From NCBI RefSeq assembly GCF_032854445.1, contig NC_088307.1:25804046-25868045 (forward strand): 64,000 nt of DNA. Direction: 5' to 3'. Below are positions 23,563 to 64,000 of the stretch, in pieces (the first letter of the stretch is position 1; each line of letters starts with the position of its first letter). A program made the translations under genes and the position numbers. A model generated the notes under the pieces. It was not told the origin of the DNA. It searched no databases and saw only the letters and a program-made list of their open reading frames with translations. Source of the stretch: Liolophura sinensis (lineage: Eukaryota; Mollusca; Polyplacophora; Chitonida; Chitonidae).

Positions 23563-23632
23563 TGCGCCGACGGGAATCGAACCCGGGTCGCAAGAATGGG
23601 AATCTTGCATGATACCACTACACCAGTGGAGC
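23563..23632 (-). pseudogene. tRNA-Gly, array copy 7, damaged acceptor stem
   Basis: The anticodon arm is intact. The 5' acceptor strand reads GCTCCAC, and the 3' side has lost a base (GCGCCGACGGG on the + strand), so the acceptor does not pair. The unit is only 591 bp from the previous Gly. Confidence 0.8.
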
Positions 23633-24346
23633 TTCTTAATACCGTATAGGTCAAAATACTGTATCTCAGTATGGGGCGCTAACCCACTGAGCCAATGGAG
23701 TCACAGAACTTAGATCTTGTTTTTCTCAAAACTTCCCTACTTTTCTTAAACACATGGCTATAAAACATTGGTTTACCTCTCTACCTATTTCCGACAATCC
23801 ATTGACGTCTTTCTATGCAATGTTGCCGTCTTATCTGTTAAGGTTGGGTTGCTCCAATACATTTCAATTACTTAGATATTTGAAAAATTATCATGTGATG
23901 GCATTCATCCAGATAAGAAATAATTTCAAATAAAATCTGCAGTTACCTTAACTGATATGAGCGGTATTTAAAATTAATGACACCTGCATGGAATTTTTGA
24001 CGGGAGCGGAGACAAATCGTGTGGTAAGTTAGGCCACACAACCTCAGATTTCACCTAATACAATTGACAAATCTCACCTTTCAAATTTCACAAATTTTTA
24101 AAGGAAAACGTACGTTTTTTTCTGTGCTGTATATCAGTTAGTGAAAGTCACTACATTGACAACTGCTCAACGCCGCCACATTTGCCCGCTACATTAGAGA
24201 AGCGCCAAAAGCAGCGGAAAGCTGGTTGGGAATTGAAGATGTCGAGCAGTATATTAGTTCTAAATGTTGCACTTTGTTCATTTGAAATCCACATGTTTAA
24301 TGCATTTGTAACCATATCTGCATGCGACGCCCAACCTAAATTTGAA

Positions 24347-24455
24347 TGGTGCAGATGAGATTCGAACTCACCACCTTCTCATTCCTCAGGCGTTGCTGCA
24401 TAAGTATAAGATAAAGTCTATGAGTATGGCGGGTTGAGCGACTGAAGGGCTGGAC
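24347..24455 (-). pseudogene. Degenerate tRNA-Ile, array copy
   Basis: Decayed acceptor; CAT at the anticodon position. Confidence 0.6.
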
Positions 24456-24814
24456 AGAACTTTGATATCCATTTTCTCATCAGGTTGGTATTTTTTCTAT
24501 TAAAGTATACCAATAAAGAAATGGCTTCCTTAGGTATCTTGTTCCCACGAAATATTATTAAGACTTTTTGTAGTTTCAAATTAAAATTCATTGGTGTATT
24601 CATTTCTTTTTAAAGCAGCCGTATTTTTAATCCACTTGTAACAAAATATTTGTGCGCTGCCCTGTATTGGAAGCTGAGACACACAAATTAGAATTTTACA
24701 TAACACAGTCCAACTAAAAAGAGCATGAGAGGCAATATGTATTGGAGGTATGGGCAGCAGTCCCCTCCTTTAGCTTGTCTATTTCCCACAGCAGTGGTAA
24801 AAGTAAGTTTAGAC

Positions 24815-24884
24815 TGCACCGCCCGGGAATCGAACCCGGTCGTAAGACTGGGAAACTTGCATGATACCACTACACCAGCGGTGT
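24815..24884 (-). pseudogene. tRNA-Gly, array copy 8, decayed
   Basis: One base is lost before the T stem (ACCCGGTCG) and the anticodon stem is mismatched. The first acceptor pair is A-C. The third pair has changed on both strands to A-U, so it stays paired. Probably inactive. Confidence 0.7.
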
Positions 24885-25608
24885 CTTAATATCAATAACG
24901 TATATGTCAAAATACTGTACGTCTGTATAGCGCGCTAACCCACTGAGCCACTGGAGTCACAGACCTTACATCTTGTTTTTCTTATAACTTCGCTACTTTT
25001 CTTAAATACATGGCAAAACAACATTGGTTTTCCTCAGTACCTTTTTTCTGACAACGCATTGACGTCTTTTTATGCAAAGTTGCCGTTTTATCTTTTCAGG
25101 TGGGTTGCTGCAATACATTTCATATACTTAGATATTTGAAAAATTATCATGTGATGGCACTCATCCATATAACAAAAAATCTCAAATAAAAACTGCAGTG
25201 GCCGGAATAATTTTTCATGTAATGAGCGTCTACAAATGCCTTAACTGATATGAGCGTTATTTGAAATTAATGACACCTGCATGTGATAAATTAGGCCACG
25301 CAACCTCAAATTTCACCTATTACATTTGACAAATCTCACCTTTTACATTTGACAAACTTTCAAAAGGAAAACGTCTGTTTTTTCTGTGCTGTATATTAGT
25401 TAGTGAAAGTCGCTACATTGGCAACTGCTCAACGCCGCCACATTTGGCCCCTACATTAGAGAAGCGCCAAAAGCAGCGCAAAAGCTGATTGGGAATTCAA
25501 GCTGTGGAGCAGCATATTAGTGCTAAATGCTGCACATTGTTCTCTCGAAATCCACATTTTAATGCATTTGTGACCAAATCACCACGCGACGCCCGACCTA
25601 AATTTGAA

Positions 25609-25714
25609 TGCTACAGAAGAGCTTCGAACTCACCACCTCATTCCTCAAGCGTTGCTGCATAAGTATAAGATACAGTCTACGAGTATGGCAGGTTGAGCGA
25701 CTGAAGGACTGGAC
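25609..25714 (-). pseudogene. Degenerate tRNA-Ile, array copy
   Basis: Decayed, B box altered. Confidence 0.6.
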
Positions 25715-26169
25715 AGAATTTTGATCTCCATTTTCTCATAACTTTGGTATTTTTCTTAAAAGTATACCAATAAAGAAATGGCTTCCTGAGATATCTTGTT
25801 CTCAGGAAATATTATGATTACTTTTCGTAGTTTTAAATGAAATTCATTTTTTTTTTGAAAATAATTTATTCCCAATAAACAAATACAGAGTTGATATTAT
25901 AATACATCAGCCCAATTAAAACAATATCTTTATCACAGTAGATGTGGGCTGTCGTCTTTTTATATTTATGCACGGTATATGTATTTACAACAGATCAAAT
26001 ATTCCATTACAGAAAGAACTTAAGCTTTGAGTTGTCAATAGCACATATAACGTTTCCTCTGGCCCATGTTTTCCGAAAGTTGCCTTTACTGAGACGGCAG
26101 AAGTCTGAACAAACTCGTGATTTTACACATGACTCAACAGAAGTAACTATGCTTGCAACAGATTTCCTT

Positions 26170-26520
26170 TTACCTTGAAAAAACAGCCTCATTTCTAACG
26201 CACCATACACAAAACAAACAAACTGTTATAAGATATGTGTACATTGAATTCTCGTCCTTTGATAACGGAACACCAAACAATTTGTGTATTAGATCCTTCT
26301 CTGAAAAAGCAGGGAAAAAGCTTCCATACATCCCAAAAAGCCTTTGAAAATTCAACAGTACCTGTTGTGTAACGTTGCATTCTACAAACAAATGATTCCT
26401 GGTTTCGGATTTGCCACAAAAGCTACACAAATCATCTGTGCATATATTTCTTCTTAAGAGAATCTCCTTGACAGGCAGAATATTATGAACTAATTTAAAT
26501 GAAAAATTTATAAGATTGTT
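26170..26520 (-). pseudogene. LINE 3 ORF2 C-terminus with zf-RVT
   Basis: The frame contains INFSFKLVHNILPVKEILLR and a CSFCGKSETRNHLFVEC zinc-finger (C-x2-C-x7-H-x4-C), the zf-RVT domain of Tx1/L1-like elements. It continues the frame at 27098-26892 across the SINE. Confidence 0.8.
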
Positions 26521-26534
26521 ATCCAGGAAGGCGT

Positions 26535-26896
26535 ACCGGCCCGGATAGCACAGTTGATAGAGCGTCCGCTTCGGGACCGGTAGATCCAGGATCAATCCTT
26601 GATCGAGTCACACCTAAGACTTTAAAAGAGGAAGTTGTAACTTCCTCGCTTGGCGTTCAGCATGAAGGGGATAGTGCAACGACTGGTTGACCCGTATCAG
26701 TATAATGGCTAGGGCGGGGCGGCTTGCTTGCCTTCGGTAAGTCATCTCAGTGAGGCAGCACTAAATAAAAGAGCGGTGGAAATCCGTCCTGCAACAAGGA
26801 GGCACATTACATGTACATGCACCCTAATGATTCCTTCGTCGTCATATGACTGAAAAATTGTTGAGAACGACGTTAAACCCCAAGCACTCACTCACT
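26535..26896 (+). mobile_element. SINE with tRNA head and conserved 3' domain, nested in LINE 3
   Basis: Flanked by the 12-bp duplication CCAGGAAGGCGT (26523-26534 and 26897-26908). The 5' head has an A box (TAGCACAGTTGATAGAGCG) and a B-box-like AGGATCAATCC. The body holds AGGAAGTTGTAACTTCCTCG. The 3' end reads ATGACTGAAAAATTGTTGAG, then CGTTAAACCCCAAGCA and a CACT tail. The conserved tail is shared with the elements at 31773 and 36388 and resembles the Meta-type SINE domain described in molluscs (recognition, not verified). Confidence 0.88.
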
Positions 26897-27613
26897 CCAG
26901 GAAGGCGTTGAACACTGTACGCCATATCCGAGGCCACGGTAACATTGGTTGAGAAGCTACAACTCTCGGAGGTTCAGAAATATTGGACAGAAAGGCACTA
27001 TATATAAATTTATTGTGAAACATTGCTGGAGATAACTGTTGACCATGATAAAATTCTTTCCAGGCAGACAACACAAACCTATAAAAGGCTGGGAGCATTA
27101 ACGAGTGCGGTAAGCTTGACCTCGCAAACTTGACCTAGCAAAATATCTCCAATCCGCTTCAGTGTCATTCAATAATTTTAAGACATGTTTGACTGCAAAT
27201 ACCTTCAGTTTGCAAAAAATATTGTGGATATTTAACCCACCGTTATCATATGCATTAAACAAAACAGATCTCTTAATAGCTTCTGGTTTGCCATTCCAAA
27301 GAAACTTAAAGACATGCTGAGTGCAGTGTAAAATACATTTTGGTGTTAAGACAAAACATTGGCCAATATACCACAGAACAGACAAGGCAACAGTGTTAAT
27401 TATAACAGCCCGGCCCCGCATTGTAAGGTACCGGTCACCCCAACATGACACATTTTTTTTTACTTTCTTGAGTACACGTTCAATGTTTACATCTTCCTGG
27501 TTTTCACCAAAATATACACCACATATTTTAATGTTTTCCACAGTCCTAAAGCCGGCTACAGTATCGTCACTGACCTTCCATGTACCAATAGGAAGTACCA
27601 CACTTTTAGCCAC
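26892..27613 (-). pseudogene. LINE 3 ORF2, post-RT region
   Basis: Open from 27613 to 27098, with a stop or frame change into 27098-26892. Residues include RYLTMRGRAVIINTVALSVL and FKFLWNGKP, then a GGLNIHNI block ('GGLGLP' position). This is the standard region between RT core and zf-RVT. RT catalytic motifs are absent because of 5' truncation. Confidence 0.8.
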
Positions 27614-27857
27614 ATTAAGTTTAGCCCCAACTTCATTGGTGTATTCATTTTTTTAAAGAGGCGGTAATTTTATCCCACTTGTAACAAAATATTTGTGCGC
27701 TTGTCTGTATTGGAAGCTGAGACACACAAATTACAATCTTAAATGAAACAGTCCAACTAAAAAGAGTATGAGAGGCAATATGTATCAGAGGTAAGTGCAG
27801 CAGTCCCCTCCTTCAGCTTGTCTATTTCCCACAGCAGTGATAAAAGTAAGTTTAGAC

Positions 27858-27928
27858 TGCGCCGCCCGGGAATCGAACCCGGGTCGCAAGAATGGGAATC
27901 TTGCATGATACCAATACGCCAGCGGCGC
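27858..27928 (-). tRNA. tRNA-Gly(CCC), array copy 9, D-arm variant
   Basis: Acceptor, anticodon and T arms are consensus. The D-arm/A-box region has two changes (GGCGTATTGG for GGTGTAGTGG), which may weaken Pol III transcription or the D stem. Terminator TTTT present. Confidence 0.72.
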
Positions 27929-28657
27929 TTCTTAATATCAATAACGTATATGTCAAAATACTGTATGTCAGTGTGGCGCGCTAACCCACTGAGCCATTGG
28001 AGTCACAGAACTTACATATTGTTTTTTTCATAACTTTCCTACTTTCCTCAAACACAGCTATAAAACATTGTTTTACCTCAGAACTTTTTTCCGACAACAC
28101 ATTTACGTCTTTCTATGCAAAGTTGCCGTCTTAACTTTTAAGGTGGGTTGCTGCAATACATTTCATATATTCAGTTATTTAAAAAATTATCACGTGATGG
28201 CACTCATCCATATAACAAATAATTATCAATAAAAACTGCAATGGCCGGAATAATTTTTCATGTAATGAGCGTCTACAAATGCCTTAACTGATATGAGCGT
28301 TATTTGAAAATAGTGACCTGCATGGAATTTTTGACGACACCGCAGACTAATCTTGGGGTAAATTAGGCCACACAACCTCAAATCTCACCTTTCACAATTG
28401 ACAAACTTTCAAAGGAAAATGTCTGTTTTTTTCTGTGCAGTATATCAGTTAGTGAAAGTCGCTACATTGACAACTGCTCAACGTAGCCACATTTGCCCGC
28501 TACATTAGAGAAGCGCCAAAAGCAGCGCAAAAGCTGATTGGGAATTCAAGGTGTGGAGCAGCACATTAGTGCTAAATGCTGCACTTCATTCTCTCGAAAT
28601 CCACATTTTAATGCATTTGTAACCAAATCACCACGCGACGCCCGACCTAAAGATGAA

Positions 28658-28766
28658 TGCTACAGATGAGATTCGAACTCAACACCTTCTCATTATTCAG
28701 GCGTTGCTGCATAAGTATAAGATACAGTCTATGAGTATGGCAGGTTGAGCGACTGAACGACTGGAC
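28658..28766 (-). pseudogene. Degenerate tRNA-Ile, array copy
   Basis: Decayed acceptor; CAT at the anticodon position. The following spacer is shortened by about 200 bp in this unit. Confidence 0.6.
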
Positions 28767-28904
28767 AGAAATTTGATCTCCATTTTCTCATAACTTTGGT
28801 AAAGAAAAAAGGGTATGACAGGCAATATGTATAAGAGGTAAGTGCAGCAGTCCCCTCCTTCAATTTCTCTATTTCCCACAGCAGTGGTAATAGTAAGTTT
28901 AGAC

Positions 28905-28975
28905 TGCGCCGCCCGGGAATCGAACCCGGGTCGCAAGAATGGGAATCTTGCATGATACCACTACACCAACGGCGC
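28905..28975 (-). tRNA. tRNA-Gly(CCC), array copy 10
   Basis: One change, giving a U-G pair at the last acceptor position. The downstream T run is interrupted (GGTAATAGTAAG on the + strand), so the usual terminator is lost. Confidence 0.86.
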
Positions 28976-29730
28976 TTCTTAATACTTACCGTATAGCTCA
29001 AAATACTGTACGTCAGTATGGCGCGCTAACCCACTGAGCCACTGGAGTCACAGAACTTACATCTAGTTTTTCTCATAACTTCCCTACTTTTCCTAAACAC
29101 GTGGCAATAAAAGATTGGTTTGGCTCAGTACCTTTTTCCGGCAACGCAATTACGTCTTTCTGTGCAAAGTTGCCGTCTTATCTTTTAAGGTGGGTTGCTG
29201 CAATAAATTTCATATACTCAGATATTTGAAAAATTATCATGTGATGGCATTGATCCATATAAGGAATAATTTCAAATAAAATCTGCAGTTGTCGAAATAA
29301 TTTTTTATCCAATGAGCGTCTACAAATGCCTTGACTGATATAAGTGTTATTTGAAAACATTGACAACTGCATGGAATTTTTGACGACACCGCAGACAAAT
29401 CGTGTGGTAAATTAGGCCACACAACCTCAAATTTCACCTATTACATTTGACAAATCTCACTTTTAGCAGTAGCCAAATTTTACAAAGGAAAACGTCAGTT
29501 TTTACTATGCTGTATATCAGTTAGTGAAAGTCGCTACATTGACAACTGCTCAACGCGACCACATTTGCCCGCTACATTAGAGAAGCGCCAAAAGCAGCGC
29601 AAAAGCTGATTGGGAATTCAAGCTGTCGAGCAGCTCATAAGTGCTAAATGCTGCACTTTATTCTCTCGAAATCCATATTTTTAATCCATTTGTAACCAAA
29701 TTAGCACGCAACCCCCGACCTAAAGCTGAA

Positions 29731-29839
29731 TGCTACAGATGAGCTTCGAACTCACCACCTCCTCATTCCTCAAGCGTTGCTGCATAAGTATAAGATACAG
29801 TCTATGAGTATGGCAGGTTGAGCGACTGAAGGACTGGAC
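29731..29839 (-). pseudogene. Degenerate tRNA-Ile, array copy
   Basis: Decayed; B box altered as at 18699. Confidence 0.6.
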
Positions 29840-30195
29840 AGAACTTTGATCTCCATTTTCTCATAACTTTGGCATTTTTTATTAAAAGTATACCAATAAA
29901 GAAATGGCTTCCTGAGGTATCTTGTTCTCACGAAATATTATGATCACTTTTTGTAGTTTCAAATTAAAATTCATTGGTGAATTAATTTCTATTTAAAGCA
30001 GCCGTATTTTTATCCCACTTGTAACAAAATATTTGTGCGCTGCCCTGTATTGGAAGCTGAGACACACAAATTGGAATTTTGCATGATACAGTGCAATTAA
30101 AAAGAGTATGAGAGGCAATGTGTAAGGGGTAAGTGCAGCAGTCCCCTCCTTCAGCTTCTCTATTTCCCACATCAGTGGTAAAAGTAAGTTTAGAC

Positions 30196-30266
30196 TGCGC
30201 TGCCCGGGAATCGAACCCGGGGCGCAAGAATGGGAATCTTGCATGATAACACTACACCAGCGGCGT
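30196..30266 (-). pseudogene. tRNA-Gly(CCC)-like, array copy 11
   Basis: The anticodon arm is intact, but the acceptor stem has two mismatches (pairs 1 and 5), with further changes in the D arm and variable region. TTTT present. Doubtful function. Confidence 0.65.
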
Positions 30267-30980
30267 TTCTTAATAACGTATAGGTCAAAATACTGTATGT
30301 CAGTATGGCGCGCTAACCCACTGAGCCAATGGAGTCACAGAACTTGCATCTTGTTTTTCTAAAAACTTCCCTACATTTCTTAAACACATAGCTATAAAAC
30401 ATTGGTTTACCTCAGTACCTTTTTCCGACAATGCATTGACGCCTTTCTATGCAAAGTTGGCGTCTTATCTTTTAAGGATGGGTTGCTCAAATGCATTTCA
30501 ATTAGTTAGATATTTGAAAAATTATCATGTGATGGCATTCATCCAGATAAGAAATAATTTCAAATAAAATCTGCAGTTGCCTTAACTGATATGAGCGTTA
30601 TTTGAAATTAATGACACCTGCATGGAATTTTTGACGACACCGCAGACAAATCGTGTGGTAAATTAGGCCACAGAACCTCAGATTTCACCTCATACAATTG
30701 ACAAATCTCACCTTTTAAATTTGACAAATTTTCATAGGAAAACGTCTGTTTTTTCTGTGCTGTATATCAGTTAGTGAAAGTCGCTACATTGACAACTGCT
30801 CAACGCAGTCACATTTGCCCGCTACATTAGAGAAGCGCCAAAAGCAGCGCAAAAGCTGATTGGGAATTCAAGCTGTGGAGCAGTACTTTAGTGCTAAAAG
30901 CTGCACTTCATTCTCTCGAAATCCATATTTTTAATGCATTTGTAACCAAATCACCACGCGTCGCCTGGTCTAAATTTGAA

Positions 30981-31089
30981 TGCTACAGATGAGATTCGAA
31001 CTCAACACCTTCTCATTATTCAGGCGTTGCTGCATAAGTATAAGATACAGTCTATGAGTATGGCGGGTTGAGCGACTGAAGGACTGGAC
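30981..31089 (-). pseudogene. Degenerate tRNA-Ile, array copy
   Basis: Decayed; CAT at the anticodon position. Confidence 0.6.
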
Positions 31090-31442
31090 AGAACTTTGAT
31101 CTCCATTTTCTCATCAGGTTGGTATTTTTTCTTAAAGTATACCAATAAAGAAATGGCTTCCTTAGGTATCTTGTTCCCACGAAATATTATGATCACTTTT
31201 CGTAGTTTCAAATTAAAATTCATTGGTGTATTCATTTTTTTTAAAGCAGCTGTGTTTTTAATCCTCTTGTAACAAAATATTTGTGCGCTGCCCTGTATTG
31301 GAAGCTCAAACGCACGAATTGGAATGTTGCATGATACTGTGCAATTAAAAAGGGTATAACAGGCAATATGCATAAGAGGTAAGTGCAGCAGTATCCTCCT
31401 TCAGCTTCTGTTTCCCACATCAGTGGTAAAGTAAGTTTGGAC

Positions 31443-31513
31443 TGCGCCGCCCGGGAATCGAACCCGGTTCGCAAGAATGGGAATCTTGCATGATACCACT
31501 ACACCAGCGGCGC
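31443..31513 (-). tRNA. tRNA-Gly(CCC), array copy 12
   Basis: A single change in the variable region; all stems pair. The terminator is reduced to TTT. Confidence 0.87.
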
Positions 31514-31772
31514 TTCTTAATATGAATACCGTATAGGTTAAAGTACTGTCTGTCAGTATGACGCGCTAACCGACTGAGCCACTGGAGCTACAGAACTTAT
31601 CTATTAAGGTGGGTTGCTACAATACATTTGATATACTCAGATATTTGAAAAATTTATCATGTGATGGCATTCATCCACATAACATATAATTTCAAATAAA
31701 AACTGCCGGAATAGTTTTTATGTAATGAGCGTCTACAAATGCCTTAACTGATATGAGCGTTGTTTTAAATTA

Positions 31773-32084
31773 CCAGGTTTAATCCTGGGTCGGGTCACAC
31801 CTAAGACTTTGAAAGAGGAAGTTGTAACTTCCTCGGCTGGCGTTCAACAATAAGGGGAGAATGGAACGACTTGTTGACCCGTATCAGTATGATGGCTCGG
31901 GCCGCGGCTTACTTGCCTTCGGTAAGTCGTCTCAATGCAGCAGCACTAGATAAAAAGGCGGTGGAAATCCTCCCTGCAGCAAGGAGGCACATTACATACA
32001 CTCTCAGGACTCCTTCGTCGTCAAATGACTGAAAAATTTTTAAGTACGAGGTTAAACCCCAAGCACTTACTTACCCACTTACTC
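31773..32084 (+). mobile_element. 5'-truncated SINE (same type as 26535) in the array
   Basis: Lacks the A box and starts near the B box (AGGTTTAATCCTGGG). Body and 3' domain (AAATGACTGAAAAATTTTTA, GTTAAACCCCAAGCACTTAC) match 26535-26896. The 10-bp duplication TTTTAAATTA lies at 31763-31772 and 32085-32094. Confidence 0.87.
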
Positions 32085-32455
32085 TTTTAAATTAATGAGA
32101 CCTGCATGGCATATATAAGGGCAGGGTAGATAAATCGTTTGATAAATTAGGTCACACAGCCACAAATTTCACCTGTTGCATTTGATAAATTTTACCTTTT
32201 ACATTTGACAAATTTCAAATATAAACTTTCTTGTTTTCTATGTATATCATTTAGTGAAAGTCGGTACATCGACACCCGCAGGAACCCATTCACATTTGCC
32301 AGGTACATTACAGATGCGACAGAAGCAGCGCAAAGGCTAGCTAGGAATTCAAACTGTCGGGAACTACGTTATTGAACGCACTTTGTTTTTTCGAAATCAA
32401 TATTTTAAATGCATTTGTAACAAAATCTGTATGCGACTCTCGGGCAAAAGTTGGA

Positions 32456-32565
32456 TGCTCCAGGTGAGGATCGAACTCACCCCCACCGCATTCCTCAAAC
32501 CCTGATGCACAAGTATAAGATACTGTCTGTCAGTATGGCGGGATAAGCGATTGAACCACTGGAGC
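32456..32565 (-). pseudogene. tRNA-Ile-like, best-preserved array copy, anticodon GAC
   Basis: Unlike the other array copies, the acceptor stem is intact (GCTCCAG with CTGGAGC) and the T loop is good. The anticodon stem-loop reads CCATA-CTGACAG, so the anticodon position is GAC, and the D arm is altered. An intron-like insert of about 36 nt remains. Probably inactive. Confidence 0.6.
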
Positions 32566-32908
32566 TGCGGAACTGAGATCTTTATATTTTCATTTTCTGT
32601 ATTCTTATTTAAAGTACAGCAATAAAGAAATGGCTTCCTGAGGTATCTTGCTCCTAAATATTATGTCAAGTTTTTGTAGTTTCAAATGAACGTTCAGTGC
32701 TGTGTTCCTTGTTTTATAGCAGGTGTATTTTAAATCCACTTGTAACAAAATATTTGTGCGCCGTCCGCCATTGGAAGCTGAGAGGCACGAATTGGAATCT
32801 TGAATGATACAGTCCAACTAAACAAGGTATGTGAGGTAATATATACTAAGCTGTCTTTTCCTTCAGTACCTCTATTTCCCCAAAGCGGTTGTAAAATTAG
32901 GCTCACAC

Positions 32909-32979
32909 TGCGCCTTCAGGGAATCGAAACTGGGTCGCAAAAATGGGAATCTTGTATGATATCACTACACCAGCTGTGA
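32909..32979 (-). pseudogene. tRNA-Gly, array copy 13, highly degenerate
   Basis: Recognisable by the anticodon arm and position in the unit. T arm, D arm and acceptor are mutated. Confidence 0.7.
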
Positions 32980-33167
32980 TTAGGTCAAAGCAGTGTCTGT
33001 CAGTACGGCGCACTAACTGGCTGAGCCACTAGAGTATTTTTTTTCATTTATCTACAAATGCCTCAATTATATGTTTGTTAGTTGAAACTAATGACGCCTG
33101 CATGGAATTTTTGAGGGGAGCGTAGACAAACTGTTTGATAAATAAGCCACAGAGCCTCAAATTTTAC

Positions 33168-41900: not shown

Positions 41901-44900
41901 ATTTTGTTTAGGTGTGTGTAGATCTGATCTTTTGAGTGGTTTGTGCAGCCTTTGTTCTGTGAGTGGTTTGTGCAGCCCTAATTTTATGAGTAGTTTGTTC
42001 GGCCTTAATTCTGTGAGTAGTTTGTGCGGCCTTAATTCTGTGAGTAGTTTGTGCAACCTTTATTCTCTGAGTAGTTTGTGTAGCCTTAATCCTGTGAATA
42101 GCTTGTGCAGCCTTTGTTCTGTGAGTAGTTTCTGCAGCCTTTATTCTGTGAGTAGTTTGTGCGGCCTTAACTCTATGAGTGGTTTGTGCGACCTTAATTC
42201 TCTCAGTAGTTTGTGTAGCCTTAATCCTGTGAGTAGTTTGTGCGGCTTTAATTCTCTTAGTAGTTTGTACGTCTTTGATGCTGTGAGAAGTTTGTGTAGC
42301 CTTTATTCTGTGAGTGGTTTGTGCGGCTGTAATTCTGTGAGTAGTTTGTGCAGCCTTAATTCTGCGAGTAGTTTGTGCAGCCTTTATTCTGTGAGTATTT
42401 GTGCGACCTTAATTCTGCGAGTAGTTTGTGCAGCCTTTATTCTGTGAGTAGTTTGTGCGACCTTAATTCTCTGAGTAGTTTGTGTAGCCTTAATCCTGTG
42501 AGTAGCTTGTGCAGCCTTTGTTCTGTGAATAGTTTGTGCAGCCTTTATGCTGTGAGTAGTTTGTATGGCTTTAATGCTGTGAGTAGTTTGTGCGACCTTA
42601 ATTCTCTGAGTAGCTTGTGGGGCCTTAATCCTGTGAGAGGTTTGTCCAGCCTTAATCCTGTGAGTAGTTTGTGCAGCCTTAATTCTGTGAGTAAATTTTG
42701 CGGTCTTAATTCTGTGAGTGTAGTTTGTGGAGCCTTAACTCTGTGAGTAGTTTGTGGAGCCTTTATTCTGTGAGTAGTTTGTGGAGCCTTTATTCTGTGA
42801 GTAGTTTGTGCAGCCTTTATTCTGTGAGTAGTTTGTGCAGCCTTAATTCTGTAGTTTGTGTGGCCTTAATTCTGTGAGTAGTTTGTGCAGCCTTTGTTCT
42901 GTGAGTAGTTTGTGCGGCCTTAACTCTGTGAGTAGTTTGTGCGACCTTAACTCTGTGTGTAGTTTGTGCGGCCTTAACTCTGTGAGTAGTTTGTGCGGCC
43001 TTAACTCTGTGAGGAGTTTGTGCGGGCCTTAACTCTCAGTGAGGAGTTTGTGCGGCCTTAACTCTGTGAGGAGTTTGTGCGGCCTTAACTCTGTGTATAG
43101 TTTTGTGCGGCCTTAACTCTGTGAGTAGTTTGTGCGGCCTTAACTCTGTCAGTAGTTTGTGCGGCCTTAACCCTTGAGTAGTTTGTGCGGCCCTAACTCT
43201 GTGAGTAGTTTGTGCGGCCCTAACTCTGTGAGTAGTTTGTGCGGCCTTAACTCTGTGAGTAGTTTGTGCGGCCTTAACTCTGTGAGTAGTTTGTGTGGCC
43301 TCAACTCTGTGAGTAGTTTGTGCAAGCCTTAACTCTGTGAGTAGTTTGTGTGGCCTTAACTCTGTGAGTAGTTTGTGTGGCCTTAATTCTGTGAGTAGTT
43401 TGTGCGGCCTTAACTCTGTGAGTAGTTTGTGTGGCCTTAACTCTGTGAGTAGTTTGTGCGGCCTTAACTCTGTGAGTAGTTTGTGTGGCCTCAACTCTGT
43501 GAATAGCTTGTGCAGCCTTAACTCTGTGAGTAGTTTGTGGAACCTTAACTCTGTGAGTAGTTTGTGCGGCCTCAACTCTGTGAGTAGTTTGTGCAGCCTT
43601 AACTCTGTGAGTAGTTTGTGGAACCTTAACTCTGTGTGTAGTTTTGTGCGGCCTTAACTCTGTGTGTAGTTTTGTGCGGCCTTAACTCTGTGAGTAGTTT
43701 TGTGCGGCCTTAACTCTGTGAGTAGTTTGTGCGGCCTTAACTCTGTGTGTAGTTTGTGCGGCCTTAACTCTGTGAGTAGTTTGTGCGGCCTTAACTCTGT
43801 GAGGAGTTTGTGCGGCCTTAACTCTGTTAGGAGTTTGTGCGGCCTTAACTCTGTGTATAGTTTGTGCGGCCCTTAACTCTATGAGTGGTTTGTGCGACCT
43901 TAATTCTCTCAGTAGTTTGTGTAGCCTTAATCCTGTGAGTAGTTTGTGCGGCTTTAATTCTCTTAGTAGTTTGTACGTCTTTGATGCTGTGAGAAGTTTG
44001 GTGTAGCCTTTATTCTGTGAGTGGTTTGTGCGGCTGTAATTCTGTGAGTAGTTTGTGCAGCCTTAATTCTGCGAGTAGTTTGTGCAGCCTTTATTCTGTG
44101 AGTAGTTTGTGCGACCTTAATTCTGCGAGTAGTTTGTGCAGCCTTTATTCTGTGAGTAGTTTGTGCGACCCTTAATTCTCTGAGTAGTTTGTGTAGCCTT
44201 AATCCTGTGAGTAGCTTGTGCAGCCTTTGTTCTGTGAATAGTTTGTGCAGCCTTTATGCTGTGAGTAGTTTGTATGGCTTTAATGCTGTGAGTAGTTTGT
44301 GCGACCTTAATTCTCTGAGTAGCTTGTGGGGCCTTAATCCTGTGAGAGGTTTGTCCAGCTTAATCCTGTGAGTAGTTTGTGCAGCCTTAATTCTGTGAGT
44401 AAATTTTGCGGTCTTAATTCTGTGAGTAGTTTGTGGAGCCTTAACCTCTGTGAGTAGTTTGTGGGAGCCTTTATTCTGTGAGTAGTTTGTGGAGCCTTTA
44501 ATTCTGTGAGTAGTTTGTGCAGCCTTTATCTGTGAGTAGTTTGTGCAGCCTTAATTCTGTAGTTTGTGTGGCCTTAATTCTGTGAGTAGTTTGTGCAGCC
44601 TTTGTTCTGTGAGTAGTTTGTGCGGCCTTAACTCTGTGAGTAGTTTGTGCGACCTTAACTCTGTGTGTAGTTTGTGCGGCCTTAACTCTGTGAGTAGTTT
44701 GTGCGGCCTTAACTCTGTGAGGAGTTTGTGCGGCCTTAACTCTGTGAGGAGTTTGTGCGGCCTTAACTCTGTGTATAGTTTGTGTGGCCTCAACTCTGTG
44801 AGTAGTTTGTGCGGCCTTAACTCTGTGAGTAGTTTGTGCGGCCTTAACTCTGTGAGTAGTTTGTGCGGCCTTAACTCTGTGAGTAGTTTGTGCGGCCTTA

Positions 44901-47900
44901 ACCCTTGAGTAGTTTGTGCGGCCCTAACTCTGTGAGTAGTTTGTGCGGCCCTAACTCTGTGAGTAGTTTGTGCGGCCTTAACTCTGTGAGTAGTTCGTCC
45001 GGCCTTAACTCTGTGAGTAGTTTGTGCGGCCTTAACTCTGTGAGTAGTTTGTGTGGCCTCAACTCTGTGAGTAGTTTGTGCGGCCTTAACTCTGTGAGTA
45101 GTTTGTGTGGCCTTAACTCTGTGAGTAGTTTGTGCGGCCTTAATTCTGTGAGTAGTTTGTGCGGCCTTAACTCTGTGAGTAGTTTGTGCGGCCTTAACTC
45201 TGTGAGTAGTTTGTGCGGCCCTAACTCTGTGAGTAGTTTGTGCGGCCCTAACTCTGTGAGTAGTTTGTGCGGCCTTAACTCTGTGAGTAGTTTGTGCGGC
45301 CTTAACTTTGTGAGTAGTTTGTGCGGCCTTAACTCTGTGAGTAGTTTGTGTGGCCTCAACTCTGTGAGTAGTTTGTGCAGCCTTAACTCTGTGAGTAGTT
45401 TGTGTGGCCTTAACTCTGTGAGTAGTTTGTGCGGCCTTAATTCTGTGAGTAGTTTGTGCGGCCTTAACTCTGTGAGTAGTTTGTGCGGCCTTAACTCTGT
45501 GAGTAGTTTGTGCGGCCTTAACTCTGTGAGTAGTTTGTGTGGCCTCAACTCTGTGAATAGCTTGTGCAGCCTTAACTCTGTGAGTAGTTTGTGGAACCTT
45601 AACTCTGTGAGTAGTTTGTGCGGCCTCAACTCTGTGAGTAGTTTGTGCAGCCTTAACTCTGTGAGTAGTTTGTGGAACCTTAACTCTGTGTGTAGTTTGT
45701 GCGGCCTTAACTCTGTGTGTAGTTTGTGCGGCCTTAACTCTGTGAGTAGTTTGTGCGGCCTTAACTCTGTGAGGAGTTCGTGCAGCCTTAACTCTGTGAG
45801 TAGTTTGTGCAGCCTTAACTCTGTGAGTAGTTTGTGCAGCCTTAACTCTGTGAATAGCTTGTGCGGCCTTAACTCTGTGAGTAGTTTGTGCGGCCTTAAC
45901 TCTGTGTGTAGTTTGTGCGGCCTTAATTCTGTGAGTAGTTTGTGCGGCCTTAACTCTGTTAGGAGTTTGTGCAGCCTTAACTCTGTGAGTAGTTTGTGCA
46001 GCCTTAACTCTGTGAGTAGTTTGTGCAGCCTTAACTCTGTGAGTAGTTTGTGCAGCCTTTGTTCTGTGAGTAGTTTGTGCGGCCTTAACTCTGTGAGTAG
46101 TTTGTGCAGCCTTAACTCTGTGAGTAGTTTGTGCAGCCTTAACTCTGTGAGTAGTTTGTGCAGCCTTTGTTCTGTGAGTAGTTTGTGCAGCCTTAACTCT
46201 GTGAGTAGTTTGTGCGGCCTTAACTCTGTGAGTAGTTTGTGCGGCCTTAACTCTGTGTATAGTTTGTGCGGCCTTAATTCTGTGAAAGGTTTGTCCAGCC
46301 TTTATCCTGAGAGTGGTTTGTGCGGCCGTAATTCTGTGAGTGGTTTGTGCGGCCTCAGCTCTTTGAGTAGTTTGTGCAGCGTTATTCCCATTGAAGCTCA
46401 CTTGTAATGTGGCAGTAGACTGTGGTTTAGCCTGGGCATTCCACTTCACCATCTTCATCCACCCACAAAACAGAGCTTTTTTTTCAGCTTGTCCATTAGC
46501 TACATAAATCTAATAAGATAAATATTCTGTTCATTGTTGCAGGCCTGGAGAAGATAACGCAAAATTTGGCCTTATTATTGTGATCCTCAGTCTCATCTTC
46601 ATGAATGGAAATGTAATCTCTGACGGTGAGAGATAACCTTTAGGGTCATTTTATAATCTCGTCTCCACAGGCATAGCTAATGTCATACACTGAGCGTCGG
46701 TGTCCAACAACAGTGAAAGCAATGTTAGGGATGGTACATTTATCTCAAAAGTACTCCATGTACATGTATTGAGCTCAGGTAAAGCACAATAATACCAGGG
46801 CGGGGGTGGGGGTGGGGGTGGTGGTGGTGGTGGTGGTGGTGGAGGTCGATGTTGGTGCTCTGTGTTGGGTTAATCACTGTATATTACAAACTTCACTACT
46901 TAGTGTCTTTTGTGTAATGTTTTGTATAATGTTAAGGTAATTGTTACAGGTGGTATCTGCATGTGTTGAGCTCAGATTTTTCATTCATGTCAAGAACAAC
47001 AACATGAGTGGAATTTACCATTTTGTGTTAATTAATGGACAAATTAACAAGTTCATGAAATTCACATATTTTCTGTATTAGAACCCATGTTAAGTCCTTT
47101 ATCTACCGAGCAGGCCTGTGATGATGAAGTGATCTTAGAACTAGATCTTAGCCAAAGTTTAAAAAATCATTAAAAAAGGTATGTTTCTTTCCATCATTTT
47201 ACCTGAAATTTGTTGTACAGTAACTTACACAAAGCTTACCTTGTCAAACAATATTTAGACCTTGTTATATTTAGACATTGTTTAAGTGGTTTGAAATTTT
47301 GGCTGAAGCCTAGGATCGCTTCGTGATTCCAGAGCTGCTCAATAGATAAAGAACTTTTGTAGCCGTGTGTTACCTACGGGCATGCTCTTTGGTAGCCTTT
47401 CTACCACATCTAGAGTTAAGGTCTGGCAGCAACCTGTGGATGGTCAATGGTTTCCCCCAGGCTCTGCCCGGTTTCCTCCCACCATAATGCTGGTCCTCGT
47501 CGTATAAGTGAAATATTCTTGGGTACAATAACCTAAAACAGCAGTCAAATAAAGAAACCAAGTCTTAAGTTTTTTTAAGGTTTTTTTCAGTGATAAGTGA
47601 TAAGATGTACTCATGTTAACGCATTCCTAATTCCTCAGCCTTTTTTTGCTAATGTAAGAGAAACTTTCAGTGTGATTTATGTACTTTTTAAATTTGATTT
47701 TGGAGACAACAATCTTGGCTTTGTTGGTCAGTTTCAGGGCTTCGCAATAAGTATAACTTCCTCAGTCTACTCAGTAGAATGTCCTCAGAATGTCATAGAA
47801 TAAGCATTTTGCAAACATGTGAAGTGGTTGAATTAAAACATAGTTTTACGTACGAGTATGAATGCAATCCCCTTGTTGACGACATTCATGTGGCCCCATG

Positions 47901-50900
47901 AGCAGTCTATTACAGGGTAATCTTTATTTTTTTATTTGATTTGTTGTTTTACGCCATACTCAAGAATATTGCACTTATATCACAGCGACCAGCATTATGC
48001 TGGGAGGAAACTGGACAAAGCCCAGAGGAAACCCATGACCATCTGCAGGTTGCTGGCAGACCTTCTCACTTACAACTGGAGAGGAAGCCAGCATGAGCTG
48101 GGCTTGAACTCACAGCGATCACATTGGTGAGAGGCTCCTGAGTCATTACACTGGGCTGGCGCGCTAACCATCTGAGCCAAGAGTCACATTGTGCCATTGG
48201 AAAGCATGGAATGAGAAGCCTTTGTCAGTTTCAGACGTTGTAATTGGAATGTTTGATTCTTGCAGGAGAAATGTGGCATGGGCTGAAAAGATTGGGTGTG
48301 GAACCAGAGTAAGTGAAATACCAACAAACATTTTTGCTAACCTTATTAATTTCTAAAATTTTTTTTTTATTAAATCTGAAATTGGACTAATTTCTGAGGT
48401 ATTTGTATGTTTGAATGTTCACAATGGTAAAATTTATTCGTGCAGCCTGTGTGGAATGTGTCTTCAAATTTGGAGATTTTCCATTTATTTTTAAATTTGT
48501 AGAAACGGAGCTTCTGCTTTGCACCTGTCTGAGGGGTGGATGTTTCTGTTTGTTTGTCGGTGTGTGAGCATAATGTTGAGACCTTAGTATTCCAAGAACT
48601 AATCGAGCTCAAAAGTTCAAAAGACCGTTCAAATTGAGATGGGCCGTGGTTCTTTCAACCATACACCTGACTGCAGGGTCACAAATGAAATATCCTTGAG
48701 CTTGTTAAGTGAAGTATAAACCCACAATGAAATAAATAAAAAAATGAATAATTAGCTTAGCCTTTGACTTCCCGCTGTGTACATGAACATGTATGTCTTT
48801 GTGTTCCATCTTGTATTTACACTCTCGTCACATGTATTTGTTTGTACAGGCAATGTCTTGGTGTTCCATCTTGTATTTAGGCTCTGGTCACATGTAATTG
48901 TTTGTACAAGCCATCTTGTATTTATGCTCTGGTCACATTCATTTGTTTGTACAGGCTATGTCTTGGTGCCCCATCTTGTATTTAGGCTGTGGTCACATTC
49001 ATTTGTTTGTACAGGCTATGTCTTGGTGCCCCATCTTGTATTTACCTTCTGGTTACATGCATTTGTTTGTACAGGCTATGTCTTGGTGCCCCATCTTGTA
49101 TTTACCTTCTGGTCAACATGCATTTGTTTGTACAGGCTATGTCTTGGTGCCCCATCTTGTATTTACCTTCTGGTCTCATGCATTTGTTTGTACAGGCTAT
49201 GTCTTGGTGCCCCATCTTGTATTTAGGCTGTGGTCACATTCATTTGTTTGTACAGGCTATGTCTTGGTGCCCCATCTTGTATTTACCTTCTGGTCTCATG
49301 CATTTGTTTGTACAGGCTATGTCTTGGTGCCCCATCTTGTATTTAGGCTGTGGTCACATTCATTTGTTTGTACAGGCTATGTCTTGGTGCCCCATCTTGT
49401 ATTTACCTTCTGGTCTCATGCATTTGTTTGTACAGGCTATGTCTTGGTGTCCCATCTTGTATTTAGGCTGTGGTCACATTCATTTGTTTGTACAGGCTAT
49501 GTCTTGGTGCCCCATCTTGTATTTACCTTCTGGTCTCATGCATTTGTTTGTACAGGCTATGTCTTGGTGCCCCATCTTGTATTTACCTTCTGGTTACATG
49601 CATTTGTTTGTACAGGCTATGTCTTGGTGCCCCATCTTGTATTTACCTTCTGGTTACATGCATTTGTTTGTACAGGCATTGTCTTGTTGCTCCATCTTGT
49701 ATTTACCTTTTGGTTACATGCATTTGTTTGTACAGGCTATGTCTTGTTGCTCCATCTTGTATTTACCTTCTGGTTACATGCATTTGTTTGTACAGGCTAT
49801 GTCTTGGTGCCCCATCTTGTATTTACCTTCTGGTTACATGCATTTGTTTGTACAGGCTATGTCTTGGTGCCCCATCTTGTATTTACCTTCTGGTCAACAT
49901 GCATTTGTTTGTACAGGCTATGTCTTGGTGCCCCATCTTGTATTTACCTTCTGGTCATATTCATTTGTTTGTACGAGCCCCCGTTTTTCTTTTCTCTAGG
50001 GTATCGCACACAGTGTTTGGAGACATTAAGAAACTAGTGACATCCGAATTCGTCAAACAGGGCTACATTGAGTATAACAAGAGACCTAACAGTGACCCGC
50101 CTGTGTATGACTTTAAGTGGGGGTGGCGTGCCCGTGAAGAGACATCCAAGAAACATGTGCTGGACTTCGTCAGCCAGGTAAGCATTTCTGTGATTCATAT
50201 CCTAGACTTAAAGGATACACATCCCAGACTGCAGTGATACGTGCACACATCCCAGACTCCAGTGATTCTAATGATACACATCCCAGACTCTGGCAAAATA
50301 CGCTCCAGACTCCAGTGATACCCATCCAAGACTCCAGCCATACACATCCCAGACTCTTGAGATATAAATATCTGACACACATCCCAGACTCCAGCCATAC
50401 AGACTTTGAAATCTGTACCCTTCCCAGACTCCCGCCATTCTCATCCCAGACTCCAGCCATACATATCCGAGACTCCAGAGTTACACATCTCAAACTCCAG
50501 AGTTACACATCCCAGACTCTGGCGGTACACACCTTAGACACTAGTGAGTACACCAGCAGTACACATCCCAGTAAAGTACATGCTGGTTTCCATCGATACA
50601 ATTCCCAGACTCCAGGAATATCGATCCAAGACATGCAATACACATTGTAATCACCAGCGATACATACCCCAGACTCGCGTGATGCATACCCCAGACTCGC
50701 GTGATGCATACCCCAGACTCACATGATGCATACCCCAGACTCACATGATGTATACCCCAGACTCAAGCAATACAAATGGAAGACCCCAGCAATACACATC
50801 CAAAACTCCAGCAATACATATCCAAAACTCCAATGATACACATGTATGTCCCAGACTCCAGGTGTCTCTGAGAATGACAGTTGTCTTGCTCAGCTATGAT

Positions 50901-60700: not shown

Positions 60701-63700
60701 CAGCAATAAAAATTATAAATTAATATAAAGGGATTTGTGAAAAATAATAAAGATGGAAATTTGCAAGGAAATGAGAGAGAAACGTACCCCACTGTAGAAA
60801 GAAAAGAAGTTATTTATGTATAATAAATTCTTCCACCAGGAATCCTTGCAGAAGTTGACCTCTAACCCCTGCTGAGGCCAAATGGGACCGTCTCCAAAAT
60901 ACCGGAGAAGGCAAATATCCACCATCATCACCAACATGTAAGCTGGGGTCAACCTGAACGGAAAGAGAGTCGTGTTTGCTGGAAGATTCCACTTTAGGGA
61001 TGTAAACCTACATTATTATGCCAACTATAACGAGCCGGTCTCATGAAGCATACTTAATGCTAAGTAGCCCTTAGCTAAGTGTACTTAATATCCCTATAGC
61101 ATACGTCGTCATGGTATTTAAGCGCAAATTTAGCTAACGGAGCTTCATGAAGCAGGCCCGAGAGGTTTGTTTTTAGAATGGCTGGAGTTAGAGCAGTGAT
61201 AAAATAGATTAATTATCACACTTATTATTTGTGCACGATTAAAACTTCCATTATGATCAAGAGTTAAGCGATTATCTCTGGTCAGTGCTATTTCGAATTA
61301 TTTAATAGTTCTGTCTCATAATACGGAGCAGGTAATAATACACCAAGCCTAATCGCCTTAAATCTTCTTGGATGTAAACTAGATTTGTAATGTGGTCAGA
61401 GAAGTCAGGAAATACTCTTGTTTAACAATTGCATATGGAAAAAAATCTAAAAATGACTATACATGTATGTACGTCACACAGCAGACATGCATTAAACACA
61501 GGTCTCCTTTGAATGGTTTGAACACCGTAGGCGTTTAATAATGAGGTTGCCGGAAGCAAAAATCTATCAGCCTAATACAGAAGATGTACATATACTTAGC
61601 CTTGTCAACATACCGCCAAAACCTGTGGAAATAGAACAATGCCCAGTTGATTCGACCCTTGCTCTTGTCCATTTCTTTAAAGGTGATATATGCCACCAGA
61701 AGTCCGCTGCAACAGGCATGTACATGTATGTACAAGCTATTAGAAGTATATATTTACTACAGAAATCAGATAATTTACGACTTTACGTCATCTGTTTATA
61801 AGGCTGTACTGGAGAATGTTTACCTTTTCTACAGTACGACGACGATCAGAAGCATAGGTTGGTAAATTAGCTGCAGGGACAAACTTGACACACCTGCTGA
61901 CTTCGAATGCTGGCTTCGCACCTGCGATCTCCGTCGTGTGGGTCTCTCTGTCGTCCTATAAAAAGCTCTACAGCCGTAGGCTGCTAAGCGTCCCTCGTTA
62001 ATTTCCGAATTAAAGTCAATGATTTTGATATTTATGTCTAGCATGTTTGTTTCTTTGAAGTTTACGGAGATTTTACACTATTTCGGTCATATTCCTTATT
62101 GGCAAAGGTCAAGCCAATATAAGTAGAGCTACATTGACAAAAAAAACAAAAAAAAAAACAAAAAAAACAAAAAACAATGGGCCAATTCAGGGAAAACTGT
62201 TTTGCTGAACACCCATATTGTACATAATGGACTCCTCCAACCTGATCAGAAGTACAATCAGTTGAGCCTTCTATGACTCAGTCATTGGTCAGTGAGCACT
62301 GCTGCCTCATCGGAACACTAAGACGAAGACGCCAAAACAGACACCCAACTTGGTCAAAGTACAATGAAGTGTTAACTCTGTCACTCATACACAGCTTGCA
62401 AACCATGAAGAGACAATCTAGTTCAATAACGGCAAAGTTCCCACATAATAGAGACTTGGTTCCATGCTGAATTGACAGCAGCACCCCCCTCCCCCATCCC
62501 GCAGCACCCCCCTTCCCCCCTTTCCGTCCAAAGGCCATCGTAAAAGTAGCAATGAATAATAGTCCAGAAATATGTCAGGTGCAAAATGCTCCCTATTGAT
62601 CTAAACATCTAAACTAAGCGACCTGTTCCCTACCTGAGAAAGAAAAAGGAATCAACCGAAAACGTTCCATTGACAATGGCTTGAAACGTCCAGCGTTTGA
62701 AAATCACAGTTCCGTAGTCTATCAGATTATCTAAATAAAAACAGAGCAAAGAATACACCGGAAGAGAATAGTTATGCACGTGTCTGACAAGGCGTTCTAA
62801 GGTTCCAGGTGGGTAAACTTTACGGTTTGACTATTATAGGCATTGGGCGTATGAAATAAAAGACGATGGAAATGTCGAACCCATAACACATCTAGGAGAA
62901 AAGTCTGGGTATGTTATGGTAAGCGAATTAACTTATTGCCCATGTTAACCTATACTGGGCAGCTTTGCCGTACTTTTTACTCATTCAGTGAGCAAGCGCG
63001 TATTTCATCCTTGCGACACTATCGTGACGGTGCTTACCAGCTGAGGATTTGAACCAGCGATTTCTGTGCTTCTAGTCCAAGATTCTAGCGCTAGACTAAA
63101 GGGAAAATCCCTACAGCCTGTAGGTAGATACTGGTTGTATATCACCCTGTTACATTATATTGCACCACATACTTTGAATGTTATAATTCCTTTCACAAGG
63201 GTACAAGACTAAATTAGCATTAATGCATACGTCTGAACCACACACATACTCACCAATGCATTAATAGCATACCTGCATTTGCGTAAAATAAACGACTAGA
63301 GTATCGAGAGTAAAATAGGACACTGGCGACAGTTTGGTAGTTAACAAATGGTGACGTGTAGCCCGGGAAATTCGGCCTCTTGTCTATTTACCTCAGTTAT
63401 AGGCTTTTATTCTAACTATTTTTGTAAATGCTTATAAGAGAAGTAAGCTATAGTCGCTTCTCCAGCACCTCGGTGTCACCAATAGGTAGAATGATCAGTG
63501 ATTTTAATCATGGACTTTATTTCACGTTACCGCTTTTGACCCACTACATGACCCACACACATACTCACGAGTCACTATCAGTGTGACTGCATACGCCCGA
63601 CCCACGCACTTACTCACCAGACACTATCAGCATGATTGCATACGTATGACCCACAAACATACTCATCAGACATTATCAGCATCATTACATACGTATACCC

Positions 63701-64000
63701 ACGTACATACTCACCAGACACTATCAACGTGGTTGCATACGCCTGACCCACGTACATACTCACCAGACTCTATCAGTATGATTGCATACGTATGACCCAC
63801 GTACATACTCATCAGACTCTATCAGTATAAATGCATACGTATGACCCACGTACATACTCACCAGACACCAAGATTGTATACGTCTGACATACTCACCAGA
63901 TACTATCAGCATGATTGCATACGTATGACCTAGAATAACCCAGCTCATACTCAGGAACCGGATACCATTTAAACAGGTCAGGCTTCCTGGGGCCTGTGCA
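54658..64000 (-). CDS. Acyltransferase-3 / nose-resistant-to-fluoxetine (nrf-6)-like membrane protein, 3' part
   Basis: Exons in transcript order: >64000-63897, 62730-62634, 60953-60788, 59876-59797, 58558-58436, 57416-57293, 56785-56599, 55799-55657, 54789-54658. All junctions are GT-AG and every phase joins, giving 384 codons and TAA. Motifs in order: LTCLNGIRFLSMSWVILGHT (opening helix of the acyltransferase-3 domain), FSVDSFFFLR, CKDSWWKNLLYINNF, CMSWAWYLANDMQFYVISPL, GPYLVGMTVGYILYR, SRLTYCAYLIHP-like GRLTYCAYLIHPLVM, and SLAFEAPMIGLE near the end. The family is multipass and membrane-bound; in worms NRF-6/NDG-4 act in lipid or drug transport. The N-terminal NRF domain would lie beyond the window. 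Three or more SINE insertions sit in its introns. Confidence 0.93.
55657..55799 (-). CDS. nrf-6-like exon h
   Basis: Acceptor CTCTTCCAG; LSWAPFQPLGRLTYCAYLIH. The open frame runs on to a TGA seven bases into the intron, but the GTAATA donor joins in phase to exon i, which carries the expected family C-terminus. Confidence 0.92.
56599..56785 (-). CDS. nrf-6-like exon g
   Basis: Acceptor TCCATGTAG; two membrane spans (VVFGWILTFTCNLAVLYGLY and TVWALGLAWLVIACSSG); donor GTAAAT, one base carried. Confidence 0.94.
57293..57416 (-). CDS. nrf-6-like exon f
   Basis: Acceptor CTTTAAAG; YYEKPYCRIGPYLVGMTVGY; donor GTATGT, phase 0. The acceptor is weak in pyrimidines but phase and family match support it. 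Confidence 0.92.
57821..58090 (-). mobile_element. Full-length SINE, family A, in the intron between exons e and f
   Basis: (TTTA)n tail, GATTGGTGTTTTATGCCGTA, a GCGGCCAGCATTATGGTGGG body, and the complete tRNA-like head at about 57995-58080. Confidence 0.88.
58436..58558 (-). CDS. nrf-6-like exon e
   Basis: Acceptor CTATCCAG; a hydrophobic segment (VAGTAVLMTLLTGSFITTGV); donor GTACGT, two bases carried. Confidence 0.88.
58655..58900 (-). repeat. Degenerate SINE-like repeat
   Basis: TTTATTTATTTCATTGATGT tail with a diverged body, and a B-box-like GGATTCGAGCATGCGACCTC near 58845-58865. Confidence 0.55.
59470..59618 (+). mobile_element. 5'-truncated SINE, family A
   Basis: GGTCTTCCAGCAACCTTCGG through AAACACCAATCAAATAAATA; opposite orientation to the host gene. 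Confidence 0.82.
59797..59876 (-). CDS. nrf-6-like exon d
   Basis: Acceptor GATTTCAG; CMSWAWYLANDMQFYVISPL, the most diagnostic family motif; donor GTAAGT. Confidence 0.95.
60273..60410 (-). mobile_element. SINE fragment, family A, with G-rich insert
   Basis: GACGACGGCCAGCATTATGG and GGGAGGAAACCGGGCAGAGC, then a stretch of G runs (G13 at 60363-60375) replacing the usual middle. Confidence 0.65.
60570..60702 (-). mobile_element. SINE fragment, family A
   Basis: T-rich tail, TTTTACGCCTTCCTCAAGAA, CGACGGCGGCCAGCATTATG, ending near CCGCAGGTTG. Lies just downstream of exon c. Confidence 0.8.
60788..60953 (-). CDS. nrf-6-like exon c
   Basis: Acceptor CCGTTCAG; LTPAYMLVMMVDICLL and the conserved CKDSWWKNLLYINNF; donor GTACGT, phase 0. 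Confidence 0.94.
60990..62630. other. Intron between exons b and c
   Basis: No coding or RNA feature recognised. An A-rich run with scattered C lies at 62139-62175. Confidence 0.5.
62634..62730 (-). CDS. nrf-6-like exon b
   Basis: Acceptor TTTATTTAG; NLIDYGTVIFKRWTFQAIVN and GTFSVDSFFFL; donor GTAGGG, two bases carried. Confidence 0.93.
63558..63939 (-). repeat. 49-bp minisatellite derived from an exon end and its splice donor
   Basis: Seven intronic units precede the genuine exon a boundary. Each, on the + strand, is of the type CATACTCACCAGACACTATC + AGCATGATTGCATACGTATG + ACCCACGTA. The last 30 or so bases match the end of exon a, and CTCACC is the inverse of its GGTGAG donor. Period 49 except one shortened unit (about 63853-63888). 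Confidence 0.9.
63897..64000 (-). CDS. nrf-6-like exon a (partial, window edge)
   Basis: Encodes TAQAPG-to-MLIVS order with LTCLNGIRFLSMSWVILGHT; ends with one base before GTGAGT. The left end is duplicated as a 49-bp minisatellite. Confidence 0.92.

Follow-up and report, generated by a model that had tools for sequence, protein, structure and literature searches.

In the human CBS gene, a 31-bp variable number tandem repeat (VNTR), c.1444_1467+7(16_21), is polymorphic at 16-21 copies, and by its variant name the tandem unit consists of an exon tail (24 nt) and an intron head (7 nt) (PMC2630376), so that a donor position recurs in every unit. Here we describe a 49-bp minisatellite of this kind in the chiton Liolophura sinensis, located where a coding exon meets its intron in an nrf-6-like acyltransferase gene, within an analysed stretch of 64,000 nt (the window, C13:25804046-25868045) of an assembly that was searched over 609,464,459 bases in 632 contigs. 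In structure, the array is an exon-intron-junction VNTR of the CBS type, having several units, each spanning exon tail and donor GT; it differs in its unit of 34 + 15 nt, as opposed to 24 + 7 nt in CBS, and in being known from one assembly. The CBS repeat was reportedly associated with enzyme activity by Lievers in 2001.

A second human array, in intron 18 of ABCA7, has a 25 bp unit that starts at the exon 18 donor GT (PMC5954066). As in the chiton, repetition starts from the donor of the exon itself, each unit is a possible donor, and retention of one unit is out of frame; this isoform is reported at 2 +/- 1%, independent of VNTR length, and transcripts with a premature stop increase when translation is blocked (PMC5954066). 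However, the ABCA7 unit begins at GT and repeats no exon tail, whereas the full chiton unit includes 34 nt of exon, and the chiton array is thus not of the donor-anchored ABCA7 type, in which the unit lacks exon sequence. The ABCA7 VNTR can also be far longer, and its effects on splicing and expression have been measured (PMC5954066).

Variable internal tandem repeats at exon-intron boundaries, with 27 intron modifications, have further been reported in human segmental-duplication genes (PMC2812944). These resemble the chiton case in being minisatellites at the exon-intron boundaries of recently duplicated paralogs, but they are transcript-supported, whilst the chiton arrays belong to an older paralog pair known from DNA sequence. 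With the CBS unit and these boundary minisatellites, the kind of array is already known, and the chiton pair is a new case of it. Competing donors have been studied in human cells (PMC1877881, PMC5585400), and C. elegans minisatellites occur near alternative exons in a report whose available text makes no mention of donors (PMC4039745); our literature search on competition among several identical donors found no natural ladder.

The array grew from an exon-intron junction

The first copy of the array is the real junction of exon a which, as an earlier note on this DNA had stated, ends at 63897 with GTGAGT, and seven further donor positions extend into the intron, where the note had counted about seven. 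Wrap-around alignment resolves a full unit into an intron head of ~15 nt (for instance GTGAGTATGTACGTG) and an exon tail of 34 nt (for instance GGTCATACGTATGCAATCATGCTGATAGTGTCTG). Compared with the exon tail, the six full intronic units agree at 33/34 positions in one case and at 25-31 of 33-34 in the remaining five, and the shortened first intronic unit agrees at 24/27. In transcript order, the last exon-like bases of the seven further units lie at 63862, 63813, 63764, 63715, 63667, 63618 and 63569, the intervals between successive donor positions being 35, 49, 49, 49, 48, 49 and 49 nt. The nine bases of the real donor (CTG/GTGAGT, -3 to +6, the slash marking the exon-intron border) are kept unchanged in four of the seven decoys, at 63862, 63764, 63715 and 63618; the unit at 63569 carries CTC/GTGAGT, and those at 63813 and 63667 read ATGAGT. 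This tally agrees with the earlier one and the units are the same, although the coordinates first given to them were 9-11 bases too low. The spacing of 49 bp previously assumed throughout, with the frame restored by adding three units, does not hold, since only 35 nt separate the first two donor positions; another interval is 48 nt. Frame is kept only at +84 nt, a dead donor, and at +279 nt, where a stop has already been passed.

The host gene probably encodes an NRF-6-like membrane acyltransferase, with both an NRF and an Acyl_transf_3 domain present. Pfam matches were taken on hand-joined exon pieces rather than a full gene model: upstream pieces match the NRF domain (PF20146, E 5.5e-17), downstream exons match Acyl_transf_3 above cutoff (PF01757, E 9e-10), and the joined peptide of exons a and b gives a weak Acyl_transf_3 match below the Pfam cutoff (E 8e-05). 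Exon a holds an RX10H motif (R-FLSMSWVILG-H), and we take its GHTY histidine to be the histidine of RX10H, a motif of the acyltransferase-3 family. The exon a peptide ends in phase 1 with GHTYAIMLIVS(G), its transcript-sense end being LTCLNGIRFLSMSWVILGHTYAIMLIVS(G) followed by GTGAGT. Exon b starts with AT AAT CTG after TTTATTTAG, and the phase-1 join LTCLNGIRFLSMSWVILGHTYAIMLIVS/D reads ...LIVS-DNLIDYGTVIFKRWTFQAIVNGTFSVDSFFFL. Homology makes it most probable that the first unit is a genuine coding-exon junction. A 50-bp x 11.7 tandem repeat lies upstream of exon a (L009 4237-4834, ~66237-66834 when the window numbering is continued), probably within a different intron of this gene.

We searched the genome with the peptide of exons a and b at E up to 1 and obtained 17 exon matches, 16 of which represent both exons of eight genes; the 17th (C13:15722811, exon b only) was left out of the junction comparison. 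As read by eye from the printed sequences, the phase-1 junction stands at the same place in all eight genes. Only two of them carry the array: the window gene and a head-to-head gene on the plus strand 14 kb away (C13:25881988-25883499). None of the six other paralogs has a 49-bp array, and all six have the same phase-1 intron and an exon end of GH[TS][YF]- or CHTF-type. Since arrayless paralogs share both exon end and intron, the exon end predates the array, and the array grew from the junction, which together with the unit structure upholds the junction derivation proposed in the earlier note. In one of the six arrayless paralogs (L029, C13:11480749-11481872), an unrelated 58-bp x 5.1 tandem repeat adjoins the acceptor of the same intron.

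In the head-to-head paralog (C13:25881988-25882080), 23 aligned units run from the exon end onward, the array occupying 6008-7124 of L010. Counting the real one, there are 8 donor positions in the window gene versus 23 in this gene, a comparison between paralogs and not alleles. The first intronic copy is shortened at the same position in both genes, with 23/25 bases identical (GTGAGTATGTCAGRCKTATACAATC). Six aligned exon segments of the two genes are 78-88% identical and four matched array pieces 78, 75, 75 and 73%, meaning that the arrays have diverged to a degree similar to, or somewhat above, that of the exons. The shared shortened copy and this divergence fit an array duplicated along with its gene, suggesting that the array was present before the duplication and that each copy grew separately afterwards; gene conversion may alternatively account for the likeness of the two arrays. 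Compared with the window gene, the head-to-head paralog has a 1-nt deletion in each of two upstream exons (L010 2001-2905), and may therefore be a pseudogene.

Array DNA was found at only these two places in the assembly, by a search that skips very common words and leaves absence elsewhere unproved; with just two genomic places found, a dispersed repeat is not supported. Minisatellites are common in the Liolophura sinensis genome, and the array might in principle be an unrelated intronic repeat that touches the exon by chance, or an assembly artefact. We regard this as very improbable: paralogs conserve the first unit as coding sequence (GHTY), and the array is not a chance neighbour because it recurs, diverged, at the same junction of the second gene and was found nowhere else. 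As to an artefact, the HiFi reads average 8,347 bp and can span the array, though at only 14x (PMC11068029).

Outcome of donor choice

Exon a was extended to each donor, joined to exon b and translated (Table 1). None of the five live decoys (four CTG and one CTC) gives an open join to exon b, and skipping of exon b (97 nt) would shift the frame. The computed U1 duplex energy is -8.7 kcal/mol for the real donor and the four CTG decoys, -5.3 for the CTC decoy and -2.1 for the AT sites. In the head-to-head paralog, an in-frame stop in the extension precedes all 22 further unit positions.

Table 1 Features of the nrf-6-like gene and its junction array in the window.
Feature	Window position	Strand	Evidence or predicted outcome
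49-bp minisatellite	63548..63930	-	Tandem Repeats Finder: period 49, 8.1 copies, score 430
Coding exon a, nrf-6-like acyltransferase gene	63897..64000 inside window, continues to ~64064	-	Homology, Pfam, join to exon b
Real 5' splice site CTG/GTGAGT	63891..63899	-	Frame kept on join to exon b
Decoy donor CTG/GTGAGT, +35 nt	63856..63864	-	Frameshift, stop in exon b
Dead donor CTG/ATGAGT, +84 nt	63807..63815	-	Sole extension both in-frame and stop-free
Decoy donor CTG/GTGAGT, +133 nt	63758..63766	-	Stop at exon b junction
Decoy donor CTG/GTGAGT, +182 nt	63709..63717	-	Stop within extension
Dead donor CTG/ATGAGT, +230 nt	63661..63669	-	In-frame stop within extension
Decoy donor CTG/GTGAGT, +279 nt	63612..63620	-	Frame kept, earlier stop within extension
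Weaker decoy donor CTC/GTGAGT, +328 nt	63563..63571	-	Stop within extension
Array-bearing intron, 1166 nt	62731..63896	-	Lies between exon a and exon b
Exon b, 97 nt	62634..62730	-	Peptide (D)NLIDYGTVIFKRWTFQAIVNGTFSVDSFFFL(S), acceptor TTTATTTAG
Downstream exon segment	58432..58581	-	86% DNA identity to paralog
Downstream exon segment	56585..56785	-	88% DNA identity to paralog

Products spliced at a decoy would be truncated shortly beyond the transmembrane segment predicted first in the protein, and the corresponding transcripts are likely to be substrates for decay rather than sources of enzyme isoforms. The earlier note had envisaged allele-dependent splice-site choice or frameshifted isoforms. 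Alternative choice is indeed possible, since the ladder contains donors that equal the real one from -3 to +6, but the closed joins leave little of the isoform half of that proposal. That the units yield productive alternative enzymes is strongly disfavoured: donors exist, and the frame of exon a stays open for 134 nt beyond the real donor, spanning three donor intervals, but no live decoy joins openly to exon b and the sole open extension (+84) is killed by its AT, so that we give this reading hardly any weight.

We consider it probable that the exon-intron-junction minisatellite is a decoy ladder that is normally lost with the intron, its further copies serving at most as decoys and perhaps leaking into nonsense-mediated decay. 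In the ancestor of the two head-to-head nrf-6-like genes, a stretch made up of the final 34 nt of exon a and the initial 15 nt of the intron would have been tandemly duplicated, and the duplicated unit would later have expanded into the intron. Growth could be tolerated because the first copy still makes a complete exon end: the first donor would be the one used, and splicing at this 5'-most site would take out the whole array. A slip of the spliceosome to a decoy would place a premature stop in the mRNA, which would probably be degraded. For the window gene, one would expect splicing mainly at 63897 with traces of decoy use and perhaps skipping of exon b, and expression may depend on the number of units. 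In a DOK7 minigene whose upstream donor had been swapped for a copy of the downstream donor, disruption of an SRSF1 site led to more splicing at the upstream position (PMC5585400), which indicates that an upstream donor copy can be used.

Several points weigh against a harmless decoy ladder. Where reporter constructs offer donors of equal strength, the intron-proximal site is often preferred, which would break the window gene unless its first donor is favoured. We found no support for RNA folding that sequesters the decoys or selects the first donor (z -0.15). The GT is kept in 5/7 window decoys and in 13/22 further unit positions of the paralog; its loss in 2/7 versus 9/22 rests on few sites, and with the GT not clearly purged, the sequences do not point to selection against the decoys being used. 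Over these same few sites, the first G of the GT belongs to the less well conserved columns of the unit, and the 9-mer overall is slightly better conserved than the remainder. Finally, alternative ABCA7 transcripts taken together, mostly with exon 19 skipped, exceeded the canonical form in 90% of cases in one brain area (PMC5954066), so arrays of this sort need not be silent.

The ladder could instead be a working regulator, in which the number and state of the decoys set an unproductive fraction and the unit number tunes the surviving acyltransferase mRNA. Four decoys identical to the real donor over -3 to +6, with equal computed U1 pairing, stops arising from all five live decoys, and the frameshift expected from exon b skipping would all suit such a role, as would the human ABCA7 donor-anchored VNTR, which has been linked to lower expression and to next-exon skipping that rises with its length (PMC5954066). 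However, unit retention in ABCA7 does not follow VNTR length (PMC5954066), the window and paralog arrays share no conserved donor pattern, and the paralog with the longer array may, given its two single-base deletions, be a pseudogene. We therefore think regulation unlikely.

Donor ladders elsewhere in the genome

Among ~100 listed matches to three successive GGTGAGT motifs (3397 in the genome), we distinguished 17 arrays, all from the first 5.2 Mb of C1 and thus a non-random set, six of them taken at search loci and eleven as short stretches. Each was tested for open frames into its first three or four intact donors only, a procedure that may miss anchors. Two of the 17 show a homology-supported coding junction. 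The exon of L038 (C1 ~830 kb) encodes ankyrin repeats (Ank_2, E 2.1e-09) and ends in ...CTTACACATAGCAGCCGCCAAAG/GTGAGTGG; as read by eye, the unit of ~31 bp (L038 1450-1970, C1 ~829.9-830.4 kb) comprises the last 23 nt of the exon and 8 nt of the intron. In L071 (C1:4179500-4181000, minus sense), the exon at C1:4179893-4180012 matches a helicase-like protein (E 2.6e-18) whose PDB entries we take to be Mot1, also named BTAF1. This exon ends in ...TGTGATCTCAGTCCCTTACAG/GTGAGTTAG, and the unit of 48 bp, 21 + 27 nt by eye, includes the exon tail CDLSPLQ and CAG/GTGAGTTAG. Four further intact CAG/GTGAGT donors in the stretch read each lie beyond an in-frame TAG, which stands 6 nt after the donor, and the exon peptide has one genomic match at E up to 0.01.

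Like the nrf-6 array, L038 and L071 repeat an exon tail and intron head into the intron, but they do so in unrelated genes and with unrelated sequences, which points to independent origins. Three other arrays (L057, L066 and L073) are preceded by open frames and look junction-anchored; none has a Pfam match, and L057, the only one of the three compared with PDB, gives weak matches only (E 0.076). These are possible junction arrays and are not counted as confirmed. In the remaining 12 of the 17, the open-frame test saw no clear coding anchor.

Motif counts give a mixed test of genome-wide seeding by donors. Triplets of CAGGTGAGT number 703 versus 40 for the reversed motif (single motif, 10097 versus 2731), those of GGTGAGT 3397 versus 2227 (singles, 112675 versus 63364) and those of CAGGTAAGT 267 versus 162, whilst GGTAAGT gives 1945 versus 2763. 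We do not rely on these counts, because many of the matches in the listed places come from a small number of large arrays.

The window itself contains other repeats. A 27-bp tandem repeat of ~165 copies (41933-46384) is open for hundreds of codons on both strands, owing to 27 being a multiple of 3; a 60-bp tandem repeat of 17.7 copies (48911-49974) has a unit that holds an acceptor-like TTTGTTTGTACAGG; and long repeated segments at ~16000-33000 carry similar open frames of the type ANGVTELTSCFSQNFPTFLKHMAIKHWFTS at least 7 times.

A wider proposal, which we put forward tentatively and which may well prove wrong, is that splice junctions repeatedly seed minisatellites, such that tens to a hundred or more genes of this chiton, the size of the class being a guess, carry rows of their own donor, including the Mot1/BTAF1 homologue, which has a single genomic match and whose decoys would all add an in-frame stop. 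What would be new, if true, is recurrence across unrelated genes of one genome, including an apparently single-copy gene; its basis is two homology-supported cases beyond the nrf-6 pair. Published Liolophura RNA-seq covers digestive gland, foot, gill, gonad and heart (PMC11068029), making donor use directly countable in five tissues. Reporter minigenes are the usual setting for asking how one of several equivalent donors is chosen, and the window gene offers a natural one: its real donor is followed by four that match it across the 9-mer contacted by U1, and use of any of the four would spoil the product. Its duplicate holds a longer array, and at least two further examples occur in unrelated genes of this genome. 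If the seeding proposal holds, these loci would be natural contests among many identical 5' splice sites, in which the spliceosome dependably chooses the one nearest the exon. Junction minisatellites, known from two human genes, could also be a general way for repeats to burden genes with splicing decoys.

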